Shown here: positions 1 through 10,935 of the stretch, piece after piece
How the letters are laid out: each line of letters begins with the position of its first letter
How positions within the stretch are numbered: position 1 is the first letter of the stretch
Origin: Lachnospiraceae bacterium
Lineage (GTDB): Bacteria > Bacillota > Clostridia > Lachnospirales > Lachnospiraceae
Direction: 5' to 3'
Assembly (NCBI GenBank): GCA_017552715.1
Contig: JAFZOW010000092.1
Span: forward strand, 1-58,217
Length of the DNA: 58,217 nt
Position numbers and translations under genes: made by a program
Notes under the pieces: generated by a model
The model's input: only the letters and a program-made list of their open reading frames with translations
Told to the model about the DNA's origin: nothing
Database searches by the model: none

Positions 1-934
<934 letters not shown>

Positions 935-1858
935 CTATCTTTCCTCCGTCTGCGCTTCCGCGCTCTTCTTTCGTTTCCTCTTCTGGGCTTTGGCCCCGGC
1001 GGATACCTCCGTGATCTCACGGGTGATACCGGCCTGGCGTACCCGGTTGTACTCGATCTGCAGCTCTCCCAGAAGCTCCTCGGCATTCTTATTGGCATTG
1101 CTCATGGCGTTCATTCGGGCATTCTGCTCCGTGCAGAAGGAGTCCACCAATGCGCCGTAGATGAAACCGGCCACATAAGAGGGTATCATCGTATCCAGTA
1201 CCTTGGCGGGAGAAGGATCAAAATGGAATTCCTGCTCCGCAAACTCCCCCTCTCCGCTCATTTCCAGGAAATCCCTGCGGGAAAAAGGAAGCAGCCGTAC
1301 CTTTCGGACCTCACTCTCGAATTCACTGATCATGTCGGAATAGATCACGCGGATCTCGTCCACCCGCCCGCTCTCATACTCCTCCAAAAGCTTCCCGGCG
1401 ATCTCTCTGGCCCTGGCAAAAGAAGGTTCCTGGGCTGTGTAGTAAAAGCTCTGCTCAATGGGGCGTTTATGCTTTTTAAAATAGCGGCGGCCGTAATCTC
1501 CCACCACATAAAGCCGCACCCGCGGATGTTTTGCCAGCTCCTGCTCTGCAAGCTTTATCACATTATGATTGTACGCCCCGGCCAGACCACGGTCCGCCGT
1601 GATCAGCAAAAGGGCGATGACCTCCGCCTCGGGGGCTCTCCCCTCCGCCGGATAAAAATACCGTGAATCAACGTCGGAGCGGCTCTGAAAGATACGCTGT
1701 ATCTCATATTCCGTAGCCTCAAAATAGGGTCTGGTCTTTTCAAGCCCCTCCTTGGCCCGGCGCAGCTTTGCCGAGGAGATCAGATACATGGCGTTGGTGA
1801 TCTTCCGCGTATTGCGCACGCTGCCGATGCGGTTTTTCAGCTCCTTGATGTTTGCCAC
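935..1858 (-). CDS. atpG: F-type ATP synthase subunit gamma
   Basis: The product is the central rotor shaft of F1. It has 307 residues, slightly longer than the usual 285-300. The N-terminal helix MANIKELKNRIGSVRNTRKI and the conserved C-terminal helix with ELLGELQIEYNRVRQAGITREI are the two halves of the coiled-coil shaft. The extra length is mostly a basic, Lys/Arg/Ala-rich tail of about 25 residues after the conserved end. The start is a GTG at 1858, which overlaps the end of the upstream alpha gene by 22 bases. The gene is the fifth of six visible genes in the operon. Confidence 0.97.
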   Translation of the reverse strand: MANIKELKNRIGSVRNTRKITNAMYLISSAKLRRAKEGLEKTRPYFEATEYEIQRIFQSRSDVDSRYFYPAEGRAPEAEVIALLLITADRGLAGAYNHNVIKLAEQELAKHPRVRLYVVGDYGRRYFKKHKRPIEQSFYYTAQEPSFARAREIAGKLLEEYESGRVDEIRVIYSDMISEFESEVRKVRLLPFSRRDFLEMSGEGEFAEQEFHFDPSPAKVLDTMIPSYVAGFIYGALVDSFCTEQNARMNAMSNANKNAEELLGELQIEYNRVRQAGITREITEVSAGAKAQKRKRKKSAEAQTEER

Positions 1859-3588
1859 TGCTTCACATACTCCTCTGCGGTATCCAGGATCTCCTGCTTC
1901 TGTTCATCCGTAAGGACCCCGCTCTCATCAATGGCATCGCAGAGCCGGTCGGAAAAACGCTCAAAATGGGTCAGGCAGTCCTTGGTAAATTCCCCGATCT
2001 GCTCCGGCGGCAACTCCTGCAGTACGTGTCCGCAGCTCACCACCAGAAGGATCACCATCTGATGCAGGCTGTAGGGATGTCCCTGGAGCTGGCGGAGTAT
2101 GCGCATCAGGCTCTGGCCGTACTCCAGCTGGCGCCTGGTGGTCTCGTCCAGATCCGAAGAAAACTGGGTAAAGACTTCCATCTCGCGATACTGGGCCAGA
2201 TCCAGACGTATGCTTCCCGCCGCCTTCTTCATGGCCTTCTTCTGGGCAGCTCCGCCCACACGGGAAACGGAAAGGCCCACATTCACCGCCGGCCGCTGGC
2301 CGGAGAAGAACAGATCGCTCTCCAGAAAGATCTGTCCGTCGGTGATGGAAATGATATTTGTAGGGATATAAGCCGAAACGTCCCCGGCCTGGGTCTCAAC
2401 GATGGGCAGGGCCGTAAGGCTGCCGCCCCCCAGCTCATCGGAAAGATGAGCCGAACGCTCCAGCAGACGGGAATGCAGATAGAACACATCCCCGGGATAG
2501 GCCTCACGTCCGGGTGAACGCTCCAGAAGGAGCGACAGGGCACGGTAGGCTATGGCATGCTTGGAAAGGTCGTCGTAAACGATGAGCACATCCTTCCCCT
2601 TATGCATGAAATATTCTCCCAGAGCGGTAGCGGCGTAGGGAGCTATATACTGAATGGGTGCGGTTTCACTGGCCGTAGCGGAAAGCACGATGCTGTGCTG
2701 CATGGCGCCCTTGCGACGCAGGGTCTCCACCAGCTGCGCCACACTGGAAGCCTTCTGTCCGATGGCCACATAGATACATATCACATCGTCCTGATTTAAG
2801 ATGGTATCCAGGGCGATGGCTGTTTTTCCCGTCTGGCGGTCACCGATGATCAGCTCACGCTGGCCGCGGCCTATGGGGAACATGGAATCGATGGTAATGA
2901 GTCCGGTATACAGGGGTTCGCAGACCGGCTGACGTTCTATGATGCCGGGTGCAGGAGATTCCACGGCTCTGTATTCCTCACTTTCGATGGGGCCTGCCCC
3001 GTCAATGGGCTCCCCCAGGGCATTCACCACACGTCCCAGATAAGCGTCTCCCACGGGGATACCGGCTGTCTTACGCATGCGCCTTACACGGCTGCCCTCG
3101 GTCACGCCTTCGTCATCACCGAAAAGGATGACACCCAGGCTGTCCCTGCGGATATCCTGGACCATACCCTTTACTCCGGATTCAAAAAGCAGAATCTCGC
3201 CGTAGACGGCCCGGGAAAGGCCTTCCACCACAACGATCCCGTCTCCCACCGTAAGTACCGTACCTTCCTCGGCAGCCACGGTCTCGGCCTGCCAGCTGTC
3301 GATGGATTCCCTGAAGAGACTGACCACATCCTGGCCGTCGGTCTCGGAGGTCACCAGGCTCTGCAGACGTTCCTTCAGCTGATAATAGCGGCCCTCACGG
3401 GTACGGTCGTAAACATCATCTCCCACCACCAGGCGGAAGCCTTCCGATATGCTCTCATCTTCCCGCCATACCAGCTCAAAGGCTTTGGAATAGCGTTTCC
3501 CGAGAAAAGCCAGGAGCCGCGCCTCCTGGGCATCATCCGGCTCCTTTGCGGCATAGAGATAAGCTTTTTTCAGCTTCCTGTCAGCCAT
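1837..3588 (-). CDS. atpA: F-type ATP synthase alpha subunit with N-terminal delta-like domain
   Basis: The protein has 583 residues, while alpha is normally about 505. Residues from about 82 are ordinary alpha: N-terminal helix (SLFRESIDSW), VGDGIVVVEGL, P-loop GDRQTGKT at 249-256 and VSRVGGAAQ. Residues 1-79 are extra and match the C-terminal domain of subunit delta/OSCP: a helix around LLAFLGKRYSKAF, then EGFRLVVGDDVYDRTREG and QLKERLQSL, which parallels the family pattern G-[VF]-x-[IL]-x3-G-D-x-[VL]-x-D-x-S-x-[RK]-G-x-L-x-x-L. The upstream atpF overlaps this gene by 8 bases, so there is no room for a separate atpH between them. The N-terminal six-helix domain of delta is not seen. The ATG at 3588 has an AGGAGCCGGAGGG ribosome site. 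The fusion would put a delta-like domain on each of the three alpha chains; that is inference. Confidence 0.95.
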   Translation of the reverse strand: MADRKLKKAYLYAAKEPDDAQEARLLAFLGKRYSKAFELVWREDESISEGFRLVVGDDVYDRTREGRYYQLKERLQSLVTSETDGQDVVSLFRESIDSWQAETVAAEEGTVLTVGDGIVVVEGLSRAVYGEILLFESGVKGMVQDIRRDSLGVILFGDDEGVTEGSRVRRMRKTAGIPVGDAYLGRVVNALGEPIDGAGPIESEEYRAVESPAPGIIERQPVCEPLYTGLITIDSMFPIGRGQRELIIGDRQTGKTAIALDTILNQDDVICIYVAIGQKASSVAQLVETLRRKGAMQHSIVLSATASETAPIQYIAPYAATALGEYFMHKGKDVLIVYDDLSKHAIAYRALSLLLERSPGREAYPGDVFYLHSRLLERSAHLSDELGGGSLTALPIVETQAGDVSAYIPTNIISITDGQIFLESDLFFSGQRPAVNVGLSVSRVGGAAQKKAMKKAAGSIRLDLAQYREMEVFTQFSSDLDETTRRQLEYGQSLMRILRQLQGHPYSLHQMVILLVVSCGHVLQELPPEQIGEFTKDCLTHFERFSDRLCDAIDESGVLTDEQKQEILDTAEEYVKQWQTSRS

Positions 3589-4069
3589 CCCTCCGGCTCC
3601 TTTCCGCCTCTTTCACAAAATTCTCGTACGGGTCACCGGCTTCATCTTCCTGAAGAAGCTTCTTTGCCGCCTCGTCGATCATGGCGGCGATATCCTCCTT
3701 GGCCCCGGATACGATGGCTTTCCGCTCTCTCTCCCCCTGGGCACGTGCATCCGCAAGGATCTGCTTCGCCTCGGCCTTCGCGTCCGCCGTCTGGCGCTTC
3801 TTCAGCTCTTCGATCTCTTTGGCCGCTTCCTTCTTCTTTCGGGCGATCTCTTCCTCGGCAGCCGCAAGCTTCTCTTCATATTCGGCCTGCTTTTCCGCTG
3901 CCGCTTTCTCCGCTGCCCCGGCTCTTTCCTGCTGCGTCTTTATCTCCTCCGTTCTCTTATCCATGAACTTTACCACGGGAGCATAGAGCAGCACATAAAG
4001 TCCGCCGAAAAGGATCACCACATTGAAAAAGTGCAGAAGGATCTGTACAAAATCAATTCCCAAAGGCAT
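3581..4069 (-). CDS. atpF: F-type ATP synthase subunit b
   Basis: The product is the peripheral stalk subunit that holds F1 still relative to the membrane. It has 162 residues: a single N-terminal membrane helix (about residues 8-30, FVQILLHFFNVVILFGGLYV) followed by a long Ala/Glu/Lys-rich helix (about 35-145) with the heptad character of the b dimer. The ATG at 4069 has AAGGAGG seven bases upstream. Its stop overlaps the start of the delta/alpha fusion gene. In most Firmicutes atpH follows atpF; here it does not. The b C-terminus would therefore have to dock on the delta-like domain carried by alpha. Confidence 0.95.
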   Translation of the reverse strand: MPLGIDFVQILLHFFNVVILFGGLYVLLYAPVVKFMDKRTEEIKTQQERAGAAEKAAAEKQAEYEEKLAAAEEEIARKKKEAAKEIEELKKRQTADAKAEAKQILADARAQGERERKAIVSGAKEDIAAMIDEAAKKLLQEDEAGDPYENFVKEAERSRRDG

Positions 4070-4081
4070 GATTCATCCTCC

Positions 4082-4471
4082 TTACAGGATAAAGACGATC
4101 AGGATCGCCACGATCAGCGCATAGATAACTACGGTCTCGATAAAGACCAGGCCCAGCATGAGCTGTGTCTGGATCTTGCCGGCGGCTTCCGGCTGACGTG
4201 CCACGCCTTCGTTGGATTTGGCAATGGCATGTCCCATGGCAAGGGCTCCGGCTACGGCTGCCATACCGATGGCAACTGCTGCCGCGATGGCCTTGGTCCC
4301 CACCGCATTATCCGCTGCCGCTGCTGCCTCCGCAGGAGCCGCTGCTTCGGCCGTCTGAAGGGCTACCGGAGCATCCGCCGCCTTTGCCTTAAGGGCTCCG
4401 GCCGCCGTAACTCCTGTCAGCAGCACGATAACAGCTGCCAGAATACCCGCGATGCTTTTGATCTTTTTCAT
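4082..4471 (-). CDS. atpE: F-type ATP synthase subunit c with long N-terminal extension
   Basis: This is the rotor-ring subunit. The last 75 residues are a normal c hairpin: helix 1, the polar loop VARQPEA and helix 2 with the ion-binding Glu in GLVFIETVVIYALIV. Two things are odd. The first about 55 residues look like a signal peptide (MKK, hydrophobic core, AKA-AD) plus an Ala-rich linker. The glycine motif of helix 1 (usually GxGxGxGxG) reads AVAGALAMG, so four of five positions are Ala. Aligned to the Na+-binding Propionigenium c subunit, the key Gln of helix 1 is Met, which argues for proton rather than sodium coupling. The ATG directly abuts the atpB stop (TAAATG). Confidence 0.94.
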   Translation of the reverse strand: MKKIKSIAGILAAVIVLLTGVTAAGALKAKAADAPVALQTAEAAAPAEAAAAADNAVGTKAIAAAVAIGMAAVAGALAMGHAIAKSNEGVARQPEAAGKIQTQLMLGLVFIETVVIYALIVAILIVFIL

Positions 4472-5308
4472 TTATTCGTCCTCGCTTTCTTTGCTTTCTT
4501 CTTTCGCTTTCTTATGGTGCACTTCCGAGACCTCACCGTAATAGAAGCTGGTGAGCATGGTGAGCACGTAGGCCTGGATCAGGGCGTGGATAACGGTAAA
4601 CATCACTCCCACAACCACGGGAAGGCCGAAGCTCAGCATTATATAATAATAGACCAGTTCGGTGGGAAGCATGCCCGAAAGCAGCGCACCGAAGAGTCGG
4701 AAGCTCATGGATACAGGCAGGGAAAACTCTTTCAGGGTCAGGGCCACGCCCTTTGCACCGTTGCCGGCGATGCCCCCGATCATGATGAACAGATAGGACG
4801 TAAGTCCCATGCAGATCGCTCCGTTGATATTTGCCAGAGGAGCCGGGAGGGAAATGGAATGCCCGGCGGTGGTCACGGCCTGGAAGCCGAAAAGTTCAAA
4901 CATGGTACCGACAAAGATATAGGTACCGGCACCGAAGATATACGCCCCCAGCGCTCCGAAGCGGTGAGGGGAATTCCCCTTTGCCAGGTCATGAAAGAAT
5001 CCCACCCAGGTCTCGATCACCAGCTGGAGCTTCCCGGGTACCGCCTTGAAGCGGGGGATCACCAGGATACGGAGTATCGCGGCAAAAACAAGCAAGATCG
5101 CGGTCACCACATAGCCGGAGATCAGGGAAGGATCCACGGGGATACCGAAGAAGTTCACTTTGTTCTCGTTATGCAATACAGCATCCCGCATGGCATCCTT
5201 GATGCTTTCGTGCTTTTCCGGCGACGGAAGGATCACCACCGCAAAGACGATCAGGGCCAGCAGGATAAGGGATATGATCAATACACGGATCTTTTTTTTC
5301 TTTGTCAA
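4472..5308 (-). CDS. atpB: F-type ATP synthase subunit a
   Basis: The product is the stator channel of Fo, an integral membrane protein of 278 residues. The essential Arg lies in the helix SFRLFGALLSGM, followed by GLPVVVGVMFTVIHALIQAYV, the last helix with the conserved Gln. I chose a TTG start at 5308 (MTKKKKIRVL) because GAGAGGAG sits 8-9 bases upstream. The longer ATG frame, to 5368, would add 20 residues encoded inside the promoter. The C-terminal tail is highly charged (Lys/Glu/Ser). It is the first gene of the atp operon, with a promoter immediately upstream. Confidence 0.93.
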   Translation of the reverse strand: MTKKKKIRVLIISLILLALIVFAVVILPSPEKHESIKDAMRDAVLHNENKVNFFGIPVDPSLISGYVVTAILLVFAAILRILVIPRFKAVPGKLQLVIETWVGFFHDLAKGNSPHRFGALGAYIFGAGTYIFVGTMFELFGFQAVTTAGHSISLPAPLANINGAICMGLTSYLFIMIGGIAGNGAKGVALTLKEFSLPVSMSFRLFGALLSGMLPTELVYYYIMLSFGLPVVVGVMFTVIHALIQAYVLTMLTSFYYGEVSEVHHKKAKEESKESEDE

Positions 5309-5339
5309 GGCTTTAACTCCTCTCGGAAATACAAAAAAC

Positions 5340-5368
5340 AGTATACGCTTATGAAATGTAAAATGCAA
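5340..5368 (-). promoter_or_regulatory. Promoter of the atp operon
   Basis: On the minus strand a -10 box TATACT (5345-5340) lies 17 bases from TTGCAT (5368-5363), a partial -35. The predicted start of transcription falls about 25 bases upstream of the TTG start codon of atpB and its ribosome site. It sits in the only gap between azlD and atpB. Confidence 0.6.
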
Positions 5369-5388: not shown

Positions 5389-5706
5389 TTATGCGAGGAA
5401 TCGCAGCATAAGATCGGCCAGGAAGACCACCACACAGGATGCAAAAGCCACAACGGGAAGGCTCTGCTTCTTCCAGGAAAGGAAGAGGGCACAGACCAGG
5501 CCGGCAACGCCCGTACGTATGTCCCCGGTACTGGTAAGGATCGCCGGGATGGTCATCACCGTAAGGGTCACATAAGGCACATAGTAGAGAAAAGAACGCA
5601 GGAAACGGTTTTTGATCTCCTTCCGCAAGAGGGTCAGGGGAAGCATGCGGATCAGATAGGTCACCAGCGCCATCAGGAGGATGTAGATCCAGGTATTCTT
5701 AGGCAT
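5389..5706 (-). CDS. azlD: Branched-chain amino acid exporter, small subunit AzlD
   Basis: A 105-residue hydrophobic protein with about four membrane helices. The opening (YILLMALVTYLIRMLPL) is typical of AzlD. AzlD works with AzlC to export branched-chain amino acids or toxic analogues such as 4-azaleucine. The ATG at 5706 overlaps the end of azlC by 8 bases, so the two are translationally coupled. It is the last gene of the pot-azl run. No clear terminator separates it from the atpB promoter, so read-through into the atp operon is possible. Confidence 0.88.
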   Translation of the reverse strand: MPKNTWIYILLMALVTYLIRMLPLTLLRKEIKNRFLRSFLYYVPYVTLTVMTIPAILTSTGDIRTGVAGLVCALFLSWKKQSLPVVAFASCVVVFLADLMLRFLA

Positions 5707-6424
5707 GCTCCGCCTCCTTCTCCTCCTTCACCGGCCATACCAGAGCCGCCAGGCCGCTGACGAGCAGGGTCAGGATGATGACACGGCTTCCTCCCGAGAT
5801 CAGCTTAAGACCCGGCAGGTAAGTAAAGAGGCAGCTCAGCACAAGGGCCAGCAGGCAGGCCAGAGCCACATGCCTGTCCTCTTTTGCCTTCGGCACGATG
5901 ATAGCCAGGAACATGCCGTAGAGCGCCAGGCTCAGGGCATTAACAATGCTGCCGGGGAGCACATCCCCAACGATCACCCCCAGCGCGGTGCCTATGGTCC
6001 AGCCGGGTATGGCGGGAGTCATGGCGCCATAGGAATAAAAAGGTGACAGCCGGTCCGGCCGGCCCACGGAAACCCCGAAGATCTCGTCCGTAACACCGAA
6101 AGCGATGCCCAGGCGGTGGCCTATGGAAAGTCCGGGCTCCACCTTCTGGGAAAGAGCAAAGCTCATGAGCATATAACGAAGATTGATGATAAACTGGCCG
6201 ACGATGAGCTCGATATAGGAACCGGCAACCCCGATCACCCCGATGGCTGCGAATTCCCCGGCACTTGTAAGATTTACAAGACTCATTACGGTAGCCTGTG
6301 CAAGGCTGAGCCCCGCATCCCGGCACTGTATCCCCAGGGTAAAGCTTACCGCCAGATACCCCAGTCCTATTGGAATTCCGTCCCTGAAACCTGCCGCAAA
6401 CTCCGCGCCGCGCTTATGTCCCAC
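5699..6424 (-). CDS. azlC: Branched-chain amino acid exporter, large subunit AzlC
   Basis: A 241-residue membrane protein of the AzlC/YgaZ family. The N-terminal FRDGIPIGLGYLAVSFTLG and the later NLTSAGEFAAIGV and NLRYMLMSFALSQK segments are the conserved signatures, and about six hydrophobic helices are visible. It forms the exporter with AzlD. The start is a GTG at 6424, three bases after the potD stop, with an AGAGG ribosome site inside the potD end. It is therefore read on the same message as the polyamine uptake genes, a linkage that has no obvious metabolic reason. Confidence 0.9.
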   Translation of the reverse strand: MGHKRGAEFAAGFRDGIPIGLGYLAVSFTLGIQCRDAGLSLAQATVMSLVNLTSAGEFAAIGVIGVAGSYIELIVGQFIINLRYMLMSFALSQKVEPGLSIGHRLGIAFGVTDEIFGVSVGRPDRLSPFYSYGAMTPAIPGWTIGTALGVIVGDVLPGSIVNALSLALYGMFLAIIVPKAKEDRHVALACLLALVLSCLFTYLPGLKLISGGSRVIILTLLVSGLAALVWPVKEEKEAEHA

Positions 6425-6426
6425 CG

Positions 6427-7899
6427 TTACGCCCTCTTCTTAAGCTTAAGGAACACAAGACCGCCCAGAACGGCTATACAGAGCACAAGGGCTCCGGCCC
6501 GGACAGCCACGGGCAGACGATTGATGTTAAAGCAGCGCACATTGATCCACATACGGTTAATGCGCGCATTGGCTTCCGTATCAAAATAGCGCATGATGGA
6601 ACTGCGCTCCATCACCTCCGGAGTGGGGTACTGGGCAAAGAGCTGACGGTCCAGCTGTTCCTCGTCCGTAAACAGGACATAGTCTCCGGACTCCTCCCCT
6701 TCACCGTCAAAAAACCAGGACAGGTTGTAATCCACCCCTTCCTCTTCTTCCGTTCCGTAGGTCCAGTCCAGATATTCATAGATCGCATCCCCGTCCGTTC
6801 CGCCGGAGATCACGGAGGTATATCCGATATAGTACATGTTGCGCACGGCATTATCCGGGCGGGATAAGAAGTTCACAAAAGCTTCCGCCGCCTGCTGCTT
6901 TCCGGGCTCCTCGGCGATGCCGTCCTTCAGCATCACCCAGCCGTCAAACCAGAGATTCGTGCATTCCTCCGGCACGGAATATGCCAGATACAGCTCGTCC
7001 TCTTCCGCCTGATCCATGGCATAGACCGCATCCCCGGACCACTGGAGATTGGCCAGCACCTTGCCGCTTACCATATCGGCCTTTCCGCTGTCGGTCTCGA
7101 AGGAATAGGCATTATCCTTGGCAGACTGCAGGAAATCCAGGGCTGCCGCCACGGTCTCCTCGGAGCAGTCGTTCATTTCTTCTTCCAGCCGTTCCGAATA
7201 ATCATCCGCCGAAGTGAAGGCGGGATCCGTAAGCTTTTCCGCCTTTACGGCTGCCACAGCGGGGAAATAAGCATCCCGCACATTATCCTTCACCGTCACC
7301 CTGCGGCAGAGCGAAGGATCCAGCAGGGCATTCCAGCTGCTCACCGTTTCCTTATCCACAACCTCCGGATCGTAGAGCAGGCCGGTGACCCCCCACATAT
7401 AACCTGCGGCATATTCGCTCCAGGAATGGCCGCCGATCTCGTGACCGTCAAACTTCTCCCTTATGAAGGGAGAGACATTGCGCACATAATAATTCTCCGG
7501 TATCTCCTCATCCCTGAAGCCTGCCGAATAGGGCAGCAGCTGCTCCTCACTCATCAGCTTCATGATCATGTATTCAGAAGGGCAGACCAGATCGAACTTA
7601 TCCCCCAGTGTGAGCATGTTATACAGCTCCTCGTTGGTACCGAAGCAGCTGTATTCCACCCGCACCTTCTGCCCGTAGGTCTCAAAATACCATTCCTCAA
7701 AATCTTCGTAAAGGGGATTCTCCCCCAGGATATCCCCGCTTTCCAGGTCGATGGTCTCTTCCTCGTCCCAGTCACCCAGGTCGATATATTCTTCCCAGTT
7801 GCAGACCCGCAGCACCAGGGCATCATCATCCTTCTGTGTTCCGCAGGCCGAAAGCAGGGGCAGGAACAGAAGGGCGGGGATCAGGAAACGCTTTTTCAT
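6427..7899 (-). CDS. potD: Polyamine ABC transporter substrate-binding lipoprotein
   Basis: This is the periplasmic-type binding protein for spermidine/putrescine uptake, 490 residues against the usual 350. It begins with a lipoprotein signal (hydrophobic run, LLSAC, Cys at about 19) and the family motif LRVCNWEEYID. The following region fits PotD, including DKFDLVCPSEYMI and AEAFVNFLSRPDNA near the C-terminal third. Two features are odd: an acidic insert near residues 35-60 and a hydrophobic segment at the very C-terminus (about 465-486, followed by KLKKRA) that looks like a second membrane anchor. Both ends would then be membrane-tethered. The ATG overlaps potC by four bases (ATGA). Confidence 0.9.
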   Translation of the reverse strand: MKKRFLIPALLFLPLLSACGTQKDDDALVLRVCNWEEYIDLGDWDEEETIDLESGDILGENPLYEDFEEWYFETYGQKVRVEYSCFGTNEELYNMLTLGDKFDLVCPSEYMIMKLMSEEQLLPYSAGFRDEEIPENYYVRNVSPFIREKFDGHEIGGHSWSEYAAGYMWGVTGLLYDPEVVDKETVSSWNALLDPSLCRRVTVKDNVRDAYFPAVAAVKAEKLTDPAFTSADDYSERLEEEMNDCSEETVAAALDFLQSAKDNAYSFETDSGKADMVSGKVLANLQWSGDAVYAMDQAEEDELYLAYSVPEECTNLWFDGWVMLKDGIAEEPGKQQAAEAFVNFLSRPDNAVRNMYYIGYTSVISGGTDGDAIYEYLDWTYGTEEEEGVDYNLSWFFDGEGEESGDYVLFTDEEQLDRQLFAQYPTPEVMERSSIMRYFDTEANARINRMWINVRCFNINRLPVAVRAGALVLCIAVLGGLVFLKLKKRA

Positions 7900-8702
7900 G
7901 CTTCCGCCTCCTTTCTTTCCTGCTTTTTTCCGCCCCGCTGTCCGATGAGCACCAACAGGAGCACTACAACGAAAAGAAGGGTGGACAGAGCCCAGAGGGC
8001 CGTCTTTACGGAGGTCTGCGCTCCGCGGGTCGCGTTTACCACATAGGTGGAGATGGTATCGAAGGTGGCCGGTTTGGTGTAGGTAGCCACAAAATAATCA
8101 TCCAGGGAAAGAGTCACCGCCATGGCGAAGCCGGAAAGGATGCCCGGACGGATCACGGGGATCACCACCTTCCACAGAGCCGTGGCCGGAGAAGCCCCCA
8201 GGTCCAAAGCGGCTTCATAGATGCTGGGATCCATCTGGGAAAGCTTCGGCAGAACGGAAAGATATACAAAAGGTGCGCACAGCGCCACCTGTCCGGCCAG
8301 CAGGGGGATAAAGCTGTCCTTACTCATGCCGAAGACCACCACCAGCAGGATACAGACGGAAAAACCGGTGACCACATCCGCGTTCACCACCGGGATCTGA
8401 TTGACCGTCCCCAGGATAAAGCGGCTGCGATTACGGGAATAGAAGGCTCCTATGGCCCCCAGGCTGCCCAGGACCGTAGAGATCAGCGCCACCGCCAGGG
8501 CCAGGATAAGAGTCCCGATGATCATATCCTTCAGCTCCGGTGTGGTAAAGAGCGTGATATAGTTCTGAAGGGAAAAACTGCCGTGAAAACCGATGGAAGT
8601 TGCATCGGTAAAGCTGTAGGCTGCCAGGATCAGGATAGGCGCATAGATCAGAAGCAGCGCTAAAGCAAGGATCAGTATTCCCCAGAATGCTTTCTTTTTC
8701 AC
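7896..8702 (-). CDS. potC: Polyamine ABC transporter permease PotC
   Basis: An inner-membrane permease of the binding-protein-dependent class, 268 residues with six predicted helices. The EAA loop that contacts the ATPase is present as EAALDLGASPATALWKVVIP. It pairs with PotB to form the channel. The start is a GTG at 8702 that overlaps the potB stop (GTGA) with GGAGG upstream, so it is translationally coupled. The C-terminus ends in a basic Lys/Arg/Glu tail. Gene order potA-B-C-D is the standard one. Confidence 0.93.
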   Translation of the reverse strand: MKKKAFWGILILALALLLIYAPILILAAYSFTDATSIGFHGSFSLQNYITLFTTPELKDMIIGTLILALAVALISTVLGSLGAIGAFYSRNRSRFILGTVNQIPVVNADVVTGFSVCILLVVVFGMSKDSFIPLLAGQVALCAPFVYLSVLPKLSQMDPSIYEAALDLGASPATALWKVVIPVIRPGILSGFAMAVTLSLDDYFVATYTKPATFDTISTYVVNATRGAQTSVKTALWALSTLLFVVVLLLVLIGQRGGKKQERKEAEA

Positions 8703-9481
8703 AGGCGTCTGCCTCCTTCCGGCTTTTCCTCCGAGTTACCGCTTAGGAGGGTGAACAGGCAGATCAGTGCCAGCAGCACCAGGCTGATCATGGAGCCGCC
8801 GTGCCAGTCATAAGCCGCAAAATAGCTGCCGATCAGGCTGCCCATGATGTAGGTGGAGTTGTAGAGCATATCCAGCACCACATAGTTGGTCATGGCCGGC
8901 AGAAAGACCATGGCGATACCGCTGACCACTCCGGGTATCGACAGGGGCAGTGTCACCTTCAGAAATACCTGAAACCCGCTGGCTCCCAGATCGGAGGCAG
9001 CCTCCATGAAGCTGCGGTCCAGACGTTCCAGCTGATTGTATATGGGAAGGATCATAAAAGGCAGGAAATCGTAGCTCATACCGATCACGGAATTCAGAAA
9101 AGGATGGTAAGCCAGATTGCCTTCCAGCAGCGTCAGCAGCTCCTTCAGGGCCGTAAGCCGCAGGGTAAAGTTGATCCACATGGGCAGGATAAAAAGAAGG
9201 AGCAGCACCGAACGCCTTTTAATGCGCGAGAATGCCAGCGAATAAGCCACGGGATAGGCGATCAGAAGGCAGACCAGTGTTGTGATCAGTGCCAGTACCA
9301 GACTGTAAAAGAGAGTTCCCAGCGTATTGGGATCGGTAAAAAAGCGTATAAAATTCTCTGCCGTAGGCTGTCCGCTGCTGTCGGAAAAAGCATAGACAAC
9401 GATAACGACAAGGGGCAGCACCACCAGCAGGAGCAGGAAGAGTGCATACGGCAGAGCCAGATGTTTTCGGCTGAAACGCAT
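8699..9481 (-). CDS. potB: Polyamine ABC transporter permease PotB
   Basis: A permease of 260 residues with six helices and the EAA loop EAASDLGASGFQVFLKVTLP. I chose ATG 9481 (MRFSRKHLAL) because GGGGGAGAGG lies just upstream. The frame stays open 28 codons further, but that extension runs back into potA and encodes no membrane-protein-like sequence. The start follows the potA stop by only 14 bases. Confidence 0.93.
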   Translation of the reverse strand: MRFSRKHLALPYALFLLLLVVLPLVVIVVYAFSDSSGQPTAENFIRFFTDPNTLGTLFYSLVLALITTLVCLLIAYPVAYSLAFSRIKRRSVLLLLFILPMWINFTLRLTALKELLTLLEGNLAYHPFLNSVIGMSYDFLPFMILPIYNQLERLDRSFMEAASDLGASGFQVFLKVTLPLSIPGVVSGIAMVFLPAMTNYVVLDMLYNSTYIMGSLIGSYFAAYDWHGGSMISLVLLALICLFTLLSGNSEEKPEGGRRL

Positions 9482-9495
9482 CAAGGCCTCTCCCC

Positions 9496-10935
9496 CTATT
9501 TCAGCAGAGCAAAGCTCATTTTTTCTTCCGGCAGGATCAGGCTCACCTGGTCCCCCATGTTCCACAGGTATTCATCGTCCACGATCAGATCGTGGCCGTG
9601 TTCGGTCCGTATCACGTAACAGTAATGGTCACCCTTGTAGATCAGGTTGATGATACGTCCTCTTGTAAGACCCGCGTCCGCATCATCGCTCATCTCGATA
9701 TCGCCGGGTGCGATGGAGATCTGCACCTTCAGGCTCTCGGGATCCACAAGCTCTCCTGATGCATCCCGAAGCTCCTGTGCATCCGCATCCAGTCTGGAGC
9801 CGGGAAGCAGCTTCGTCAGATCGCAGGCGATCACCTGCCCGTTATACATCACACTGTAATCCTTCATCACGGAGGCGGTAAAGCTGGTGGTATGATCCTC
9901 CGCAAGCATGATATGGATACCGTCCGGCTCCAGGCTCATGCCCACCTTATCTCCCACCTTCTGTGCCTTGGTGGAAACGATCACCATTTCGTATTTTCCG
10001 CTCTCCACGGTGATCTCGTAATGCATACCCTTAAAGGTCACCGCCGTTACAAGCCCTTCCACGGTGCCTTTCTCCGGCTCGGAAAGGATCACATCCTCGG
10101 GACGTACCACCACATCCACCAGGCTTCCTTCATCCACATCATCCATGCATTCGAACTCGCCGCCGCAGAAACGGCACTTCAGCTTCCCGGTCATGATGCC
10201 CTTGAAGATATTGCTCTCGCCGATAAAGTCTGCCACAAAGGCATTCTTCGGCTCGTTGTAGATATCCTCCGGCGTACCCACCTGCTGGATGGAACCGCGG
10301 TTCATCACCACGATCTTGTCCGACATGGTGAGGGCTTCCTCCTGGTCGTGGGTCACATAGATAAAGGTGATGCCCAGCTGCTGGTGCATGGCCTTCAGCT
10401 CGATCTGCATCTCCTTGCGCATCTTAAGGTCCAGTGCCCCCAGAGGCTCGTCCAGAAGCAGGATCTCCGGCTCGTTCACCAAAGCCCTTGCAATGGCGAT
10501 ACGCTGCTGCTGGCCGCCGGAAAGGGTGGAAACGCTGCGCGATTCAAAACCTTCCAGATCCACCAGATCCAGTACGCGTTTCACCTTTTTCTCCACTTCC
10601 TCCCTCGGAAGCTTTTTCAGCTTCAGGCCGAAAGCGATATTCTCATAGATGTTCATATGAGGGAAAAGCGCGTAGCGCTGAAAGACCGTATTGATGGGAC
10701 GCTTATTGGGCGGCAGGCTGGTGATGTCCTTGCCGTCCAGAAGGATCTGTCCTTCGGTGGGCAGGTCGAAGCCCGCGATCATGCGGAGGGTCGTGGTCTT
10801 GCCGCAACCGGAAGGCCCGAGAAAGGTAACGAACTCCCCTCTTCTGACCTGCAGATTAAAATCCCGCACCGCAACGGAACCATCGTCCTCAAAGCGGCGC
10901 AGGACATCCTTTAACTCGATTATATATTCAGACAT
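9496..10935 (-). CDS. potA: Polyamine ABC transporter ATPase PotA, extended
   Basis: This is the ATPase that powers polyamine import. Walker A GPSGCGKTT, signature LSGGQQQRIAIARAL, Walker B EILLLDEPLGALD and switch VTHDQEEALTMSD are intact. It has 479 residues against about 360-380 for typical PotA. The extra length is C-terminal: after a normal TOBE region (VVVRPEDVILSEPEKG to VGMSLEPDGIHI) there is a second stretch of the same kind (VQISIAPGDIEMS to GDQVSLILPEEK), suggesting a duplicated TOBE domain. A Cys-rich loop (CRFCGGEFEC) precedes the first. The ATG at 10935 has no good ribosome site, which is unusual in this window. Confidence 0.94.
   Translation of the reverse strand: MSEYIIELKDVLRRFEDDGSVAVRDFNLQVRRGEFVTFLGPSGCGKTTTLRMIAGFDLPTEGQILLDGKDITSLPPNKRPINTVFQRYALFPHMNIYENIAFGLKLKKLPREEVEKKVKRVLDLVDLEGFESRSVSTLSGGQQQRIAIARALVNEPEILLLDEPLGALDLKMRKEMQIELKAMHQQLGITFIYVTHDQEEALTMSDKIVVMNRGSIQQVGTPEDIYNEPKNAFVADFIGESNIFKGIMTGKLKCRFCGGEFECMDDVDEGSLVDVVVRPEDVILSEPEKGTVEGLVTAVTFKGMHYEITVESGKYEMVIVSTKAQKVGDKVGMSLEPDGIHIMLAEDHTTSFTASVMKDYSVMYNGQVIACDLTKLLPGSRLDADAQELRDASGELVDPESLKVQISIAPGDIEMSDDADAGLTRGRIINLIYKGDHYCYVIRTEHGHDLIVDDEYLWNMGDQVSLILPEEKMSFALLK

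Follow-up and report, generated by a model that had tools for sequence, protein, structure and literature searches.

A delta-alpha fusion in an accessory, predicted proton-type ATP synthase of Lachnospiraceae that may carry more than one peripheral stalk

The closest described counterpart of the enzyme considered here was made by design. In FoF1 of Bacillus PS3, delta residues 2-104 were deleted and the C-terminus of the remaining domain was joined to the N-terminus of alpha, with no separate delta (delta-DeltaN-alpha; Nat Commun 2025 16:5410, PMC12229609; structure PDB 9JC1). The passages of that paper used here argue that the delta N-terminal domain, which lies on the pseudo-threefold axis, limits the stalks to one. 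Cryo-electron microscopy particles of the engineered enzyme carried 0, 1, 2, or 3 stalks (15, 51, 26, and 8%, respectively), H+/ATP was 5.8 versus 3.0, and the equilibrium proton-motive force was about half that of the wild type. The same passages mention a natural fusion lacking the delta N-terminal domain in Acidaminococcus fermentans as well as UniProt entries G4Q3K6 and A0A1I2C5T3, and state that no ATP synthase known to date has more than one a subunit and that natural multi-stalk cases are likely and unverified. The DNA analyzed here, referred to as the window, is a stretch of 58,217 nucleotides that constitutes the entire contig C124 (JAFZOW010000092.1) of a genome comprising 134 contigs from a gut bacterium of the Lachnospiraceae. 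It carries an F-ATPase operon in which the C-terminal domain of delta (delta-C) is fused to alpha. Delta, which anchors the stalk, usually occurs as a single copy in each enzyme, and alpha occurs in three. On balance, we lean towards an accessory ATP synthase of the proton type that has three docking sites for b and, probably, two or more peripheral stalks; the number of stalks is what we infer.

The fusion itself, noticed in a preliminary description of the window, is confirmed, and the interpretation given there was largely right. The approximately 80 extra N-terminal residues of alpha had been read as the C-terminal domain of delta/OSCP, and profile searches agree with this: residues 3-75 matched positions 99-172 of 172 in PF00213 (OSCP/delta), i.e., its C-terminal half alone, with an expectation value (E) of 7.9e-7 and 29.8 bits (Pfam cut-off 22.3) for the whole 583-amino-acid (aa) protein and an E of 2.1e-8 when residues 1-82 were searched by themselves. 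The same stretch was matched by five delta models of NCBIfam and by one B/delta model, in each case with the C-terminal part of the model and under its own full-length cut-off. Matches of residues 1-82 to single delta chains in the PDB were weak (best E 0.016, to a b-delta chain), so the evidence for the fusion comes from the profiles and from conservation. Residues 1-173 had chain I of 9jc1 as their best PDB match (E 1.1e-17), with the alignment running through the junction and gaps only in the delta part; for the full protein, 9jc1 ranked fourth after three plain alphas. An ordinary alpha makes up residues 86-578 (718 bits with TIGR00962, cut-off 484), and the N-type alpha model TIGR03324 gave 588.7 bits, below its cut-off of 750.5. 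The 8-base overlap of atpF with the fused gene was reproduced (Table 1) and leaves no space for a delta N-terminal domain, the loss of which is likewise borne out, as PF00213 positions 99-172 are the only ones present. Delta-C is thus in frame at the alpha N-terminus, and neither a delta N-terminal domain nor a separate delta was found within the window operon. One detail of the earlier motif had to be corrected: a spacing of GFRL-x3-GD was claimed, and the sequence reads GFRL-x2-GD-x-VYDRT-x-EG.

The remaining parts of the enzyme are those of an F-type ATP synthase, with alpha, beta, gamma, a, b, and c in one operon and catalytic motifs in place. GDRQTGKT and SVSRVGG of alpha were invariant across 33 rows (alignment A2), SRVGG was present in 34 of 36 alphas that lack the delta N-terminal domain (hereafter N-terminal-less) and in four of the five loci L218-L222 (L222 is cut), the beta P-loop and GVGER were found in 34/34 loci, and the arginine of subunit a in 22/22 aligned rows shown. 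The C-terminal helix of b was retained in a C-terminal alignment.

Whether each head receives three copies of delta-C depends on where translation starts. A total of 112 fused genes was reduced to 96 after removal of duplicates (two locus sets overlap). The fusion start coincided with a start codon in 62 of the 65 rows aligned there, and 58 of these had a Shine-Dalgarno-like site. No conserved internal start was found at residues 70-110 (the linker and alpha N-terminus) among the 96 distinct fused genes. Start codons occurred at residue 74 in 27/96 and at residue 104 in 22/96, with no Shine-Dalgarno-like site at either, and at residue 88 in 16/96, four with such a site; residue 111, just past the linker, was a start codon in 15/96, ten with such a site. 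Met142 was invariant and lies inside the alpha body. Because no conserved start would yield a plain alpha, the gene structure should give three b-docking delta-C domains per alpha3beta3 head, as had been proposed, barring protein cutting. If the fused protein were cut, or co-assembled with a housekeeping alpha, about one delta-C per head would result. The presence of a housekeeping alpha in the window genome and the variable linker length between loci would suit such an arrangement, which is nonetheless improbable given the lack of a conserved internal start in the linker and alpha N-terminus, and given three genomes (G076, G116, and G137) in which the fused alpha was the sole match to residues 1-173 (E<=1e-5).

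The housekeeping alpha belongs to a second, ordinary F-ATPase. A PF00213 profile search of the genome identified a full-length atpH of 178 aa on contig C113, in an operon with the order atpI-like frame, a, c, b, delta, and alpha to the contig end (a, c, and atpI by eye); contig C18 starts with the C-terminal part of an alpha followed by a beta-like frame. The window alpha is 54-55% identical to these ordinary alpha pieces over the aligned parts. The statement that there is no separate atpH therefore holds for the usual place in the window operon but not for the genome, and a full-length atpH elsewhere had been named as evidence against the fusion. The C113 atpH has its own b and alpha, and it was not counted against the fusion because it lies in another operon and because other fusion genomes have no full-length delta. 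The two enzymes also appear to differ in ion type. The Na+ ligands of subunit c are Gln32, Glu65, and Ser/Thr66 according to the passages used from PMC2359735. In an alignment, the ordinary c contained the Gln and Glu-Thr, whereas the Gln was absent from the window c, and a regular expression for the Gln motif matched none of the 35 N-terminal-less loci of the window's larger clade. By the rule of PMC2359735 the window c is predicted to carry protons only, and the organism seems to have both a sodium-type and a proton-type ATP synthase. Such a pairing was described for Pseudobutyrivibrio ruminis in a review (PMC11187502), in passages that mention no fusion.

Other genomes appear to depend on the fused domain. 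Using PF00213, a separate full-length delta was found in 33 of the 40 genomes with such operons. No delta over the cut-off other than the fused domain was detected in G003, G006, G023, G076, G116, and G137, and in G083 a full-length fusion was the sole delta; at E<=0.01 this profile missed the fused domain itself in G020 and G077. In G076 (99% complete), G116 (96%), and G137 (98%), residues 1-173 matched only once at E<=1e-5; in G006 they matched twice, and this genome is ambiguous. Among nine genomes tested from a survey of the phylum, the fused domain was the only one in G412 (100% complete), G164 (100%, one contig), G208, G311, G335, and G225, and a separate delta accompanied the fusion in G364, G285, and G539. 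An enzyme without any other delta in its genome thus seems to exist in nature.

The distribution of the fusion, which the preliminary description had proposed to survey, was determined at three levels. Residues 1-173 were used to search 144 relatives, and 60 stretches were fetched from these and genes called on them. In the window's own genus, 25 of the 35 sampled genomes had the fusion (24 clean and one, G022, with an NN gap), and ten had no such alpha. A scan of a named genome collection returned at least 569 relatives, of which the best 80 were kept, a set hence biased towards fusions; in this set, delta-C and alpha were in one frame in 80/80 loci by a domain test, with 45 from Lachnospiraceae, seven from Mogibacterium, and 28 from other or unplaced organisms, many of them ruminant-derived by title. 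The alpha frame was short or broken in L136, L150, L168, and L183 of this set, and others ran off the contig end. Linker length differed between loci. Finally, 398 genomes sampled evenly across the phylum were examined for junction-spanning matches with E<=1e-30 in a frame that runs for 560 aa or more without a stop, and at least nine genomes qualified (G000, G412, G364, G539 with a full-length fusion, G285, G225, G311, G208, and G164), with a tenth match, G335, cut by the contig end; weaker matches were left out, which makes this count a lower bound. Gene order was ordinary in the listed loci, each operon having a single gene for a and a single gene for b, except for split frames in L153 and fragments in L097.

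This breadth bears on a trivial explanation, that the operon is a decaying spare or that the fusion is an artefact of assembly or reading frame. The second F-ATPase in the genome, the contig end within atpD, and the broken alpha frame in a few loci (L136, L150, and L168) could be taken in this sense. The data contradict it, and it is scarcely credible: the same gene order and fusion recur in many separate assemblies, including NK4A179, NE2001, and NC2008, which are among the fused records not labelled as metagenome-assembled genomes; the beta and alpha motifs are kept at the frequencies given above; and some genomes have no other alpha match. A free-standing delta-C in L063, the sole apparent split in the tree set, proved to be an NN gap in the assembly, and this locus was counted as fused.

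The relationships of fused and separate genes were analyzed with an alpha-plus-beta tree of 60 rows, comprising 33 N-terminal-less fusions, seven full-length fusions, 14 operons of the same clade in which delta and alpha are separate genes, and six ordinary operons; L097 (scrambled contig) and L003 (partial alpha) were omitted. Full-length delta-alpha fusions, which occur in related genera, are 672-677 aa in the seven rows of the tree set and 672-690 aa when L216 is included (L073, L074, L075, L077, L078, L080, L087, and L216). With such a fusion, each head would contain three whole deltas competing for a single central position. The window fell in a clade of 29 rows, none of which has the N-terminal domain (support 100/100), and in the neighboring clade of 23 rows separate genes, full fusions, and further N-terminal-less fusions were intermixed. 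N-terminal-less and full-length forms were sister pairs in L079/L075 (100/100) and L082/L216 (99/98) and, less firmly, in L071 with L077 and L072 with L078. A single clade of all N-terminal-less rows was rejected in the approximately unbiased (AU) test with a p-AU of 5.6e-5, a formal value weakened by the naming of this group after a quick tree had been seen. Because of the sister pairs and the AU test, we infer repeated loss of the N-terminal domain of delta, the direction being loss rather than regain. A single clade of all fused rows was not rejected in the 60-row set, which is consistent with a single ancient fusion followed by later splits (p-AU 0.14). A 4-base overlap of delta with alpha, present in seven unfused relatives, is a plausible precursor of the fusion. 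The b gene overlaps the fused gene or lies at most 6 bases from it in 31 of 32 fused rows (78 bases in L070), and this tight spacing leaves no N-terminal remnant. Outside the window clade, the alphas of L218-L221 grouped with ordinary alphas (100/100), which points to a separate fusion event; L218 was taken as a 654-aa frame, its true start probably being a Met shortly before the delta domain. In genome terms, a family of the same phylum (G164, G208, and G311, with G335 cut) has a fusion that grouped with ordinary alphas, away from the window clade.

Of delta, the window enzyme keeps the C-terminal domain that binds b, attached to the N-terminus of alpha. In the proposed mechanism, more than one b2-a stalk could dock once the delta N-terminal domain, which would limit the enzyme to one delta at the threefold axis, is missing. 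Extra stalks would mean more protons per ATP and ATP synthesis at a low proton-motive force and, in the reverse direction, many protons pumped per ATP. The same design was measured to behave in this way in Bacillus PS3, as reported in the passages used from PMC12229609. With the b helix and the beta, alpha, and a motifs kept, the enzyme has the components for several stalks and lacks the element proposed to limit it to one. A changed peripheral stalk in the window enzyme would be expected.

Alternatively, the fusion might merely tether the b-docking domain, one delta-C holding the sole b2-a stalk and two standing empty, with a and b made in limiting amounts or extra a subunits failing to fit. 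This is rather unlikely, yet it accords with the engineered particles, most of which had one stalk (51%) or none (15%), and with the ordinary gene order and the single a and b genes per listed operon (save L153 and L097). Less easily accommodated are the SDS-polyacrylamide gel electrophoresis and H+/ATP data of the engineered enzyme, which point to about two stalks in the same passages of PMC12229609; removal of a limiter would fit the finding that the N-terminal domain disappeared repeatedly, though simple redundancy would fit it too. Several observations weigh against more than one stalk in the window enzyme. With two stalks in 26%, three in 8%, and none in 15% of particles, the engineered design permits several stalks and does not force them, and its activity was lowered, according to the same source. 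Full-length fusions retain the N-terminal domain, so fusion alone need not imply many stalks. The window genome encodes an unfused alpha that might mix in, the alphas of L214 and L217 lack the SRVGG pattern, and the natural members are known here from sequence alone.

A wider reading may be put forward tentatively, with somewhat less than even confidence: many gut and rumen Clostridia would possess a second ATP synthase, coupled to protons, that has two or three stalks and one a subunit for each of them. For every ATP it would move two to three times as many protons as a one-stalk motor built on an identical ring, and this state would have been reached more than once through delta-alpha fusion and the discarding of the N-terminal domain that enforces one stalk. 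One group contains a natural series of separate delta and alpha, full-length fusion, and N-terminal-less fusion, so that it can be tested directly whether stalk number is a means by which nature alters the proton-to-ATP ratio. In some genomes, that of the window included, an ordinary ATP synthase accompanies the fused one and provides an internal control, and other genomes show no other delta. The question bears on fermenting gut and rumen bacteria that live off a weak proton gradient.

Table 1. Features of the F-ATPase operon and of the fused gene in the window
Feature	Coordinates	Strand	Evidence and remarks
atpB, subunit a, 298 aa as called, conserved Arg in RLFGA	4472..5368	-	PF00119; alignment
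atpE, subunit c, 129 aa, approximately 55 aa N-terminal extension, without Na+-ligand Gln	4082..4471	-	PF00137; alignment
atpF, subunit b, 162 aa, C-terminal helix retained	3581..4069	-	PF00430, E 5e-14; C-terminal alignment
Delta-C-alpha fusion gene, 583 aa	1837..3588	-	Uninterrupted single frame; PF00213 and three ATP-synt_ab domains
Delta/OSCP C-terminal domain, residues 3-75	3364..3582	-	PF00213 positions 99-172
Alpha body, residues 86-578, with GDRQTGKT and SVSRVGG	1855..3333	-	TIGR00962 match
atpG, subunit gamma	935..1858	-	PF00231, E 4e-90
atpD, subunit beta, truncated by contig end, GGAGVGKT and GVGER present	2..934	-	Frame open at window edge

The operon was read from open reading frames on the minus strand, from 5368 down to 2, in the order a-c-b-alpha-gamma-beta. 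Epsilon would lie past the contig end and is present in relatives: a frame of 134-140 aa follows beta in 12 of 13 relative loci (one an ordinary-operon control; L050 gave nothing), and the epsilon beta-sandwich domain was found in 3/3 profiled frames, with the helical domain also over its cut-off in two of the three. No atpI-like frame was matched in the window operon. Upstream of atpB, at 5389-9565 on the minus strand, lie genes that by eye resemble an AzlC/AzlD pair for the export of branched-chain amino acids and an ABC transporter of the polyamine type, binding protein included.

The membrane subunits have peculiarities of their own. The extra N-terminal residues of c resemble a signal peptide followed by an Ala-rich linker. 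Subunit c is 101-270 aa as called in the window clade, mostly 121-150 (some starts are doubtful), and 70-86 aa in the neighboring clade; the glycine ladder of the first c helix is intact in the neighboring clade, and in the window clade it is displaced or has Ala at some of its positions, which may mean a different ring size. Subunit a has an extra hydrophobic N-terminal segment. Its RLFGA motif was found in 30 of the 35 N-terminal-less loci of the larger clade and was RLFGN in the remaining five, as in 8/8 full fusions and 13/13 unfused loci.

Two candidate partners of the enzyme in energy metabolism were considered and set aside. For Ech hydrogenase as a redox partner, the profile PF00346 matched 6/35 genus genomes and not that of the window, and a pairing is unsupported. 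For Rnf, rnfC (E<=1e-20) was found in 23/35 genomes including the window's own, i.e., in 14 of 25 with the fusion and nine of ten without, which gives no positive link. At the same threshold, 11 of the 12 genus genomes without rnfC have the fused ATPase, the exception being G011, and the six genomes with an Ech-like large subunit fall among these rnfC-less, fused-ATPase genomes; kinship is uncorrected in this tally.

The preliminary description knew of no described alpha fusion, but the architecture was engineered in Bacillus PS3 and noted in nature in the passages used from PMC12229609, the only description of a delta-alpha fusion found in the open-licence literature. Term searches did not find the fusion in the parts of PMC4154653, PMC5706428, and PMC6131620 that were covered, and the passages of PMC4478896 on butyrivibrio ATP synthases mention none. 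The architecture was known before, through a single engineered enzyme and a brief mention of natural cases. Neither for full-length delta-alpha fusions nor for the series in Lachnospiraceae was a report found in the open-licence literature, and within the literature searched the breadth of the fusion, its accessory operon of predicted proton type, the full-length form, the repeated N-terminal loss, and genomes seemingly dependent on the fusion alone are new.

Among known systems, the b-delta fusion (PDB 7jg5 chain d and 8j0s chain d, which we take to be mycobacterial) resembles the window enzyme in having lost a free delta subunit through fusion, and differs in that the partner is b rather than alpha. 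The N-type ATPase is likewise a second F-type operon without atpH beside an ordinary one; unlike the window enzyme, it is described in the sources sampled as having no delta whatever and a longer b. The Acidaminococcus fermentans fusion, as outlined in the passages of PMC12229609, shares the missing delta N-terminal domain and the joining of the rest to alpha, whereas the window lineage, from Clostridia, has its fusion in an accessory, second operon. The nearest likeness is to the engineered Bacillus PS3 FoF1, with which the window protein aligns across the delta/alpha junction; that enzyme had the C-terminal domain of its epsilon removed, whereas relatives of the window operon keep an epsilon of 134-140 aa, and the b, a, and c partners in the window are natural and diverged.

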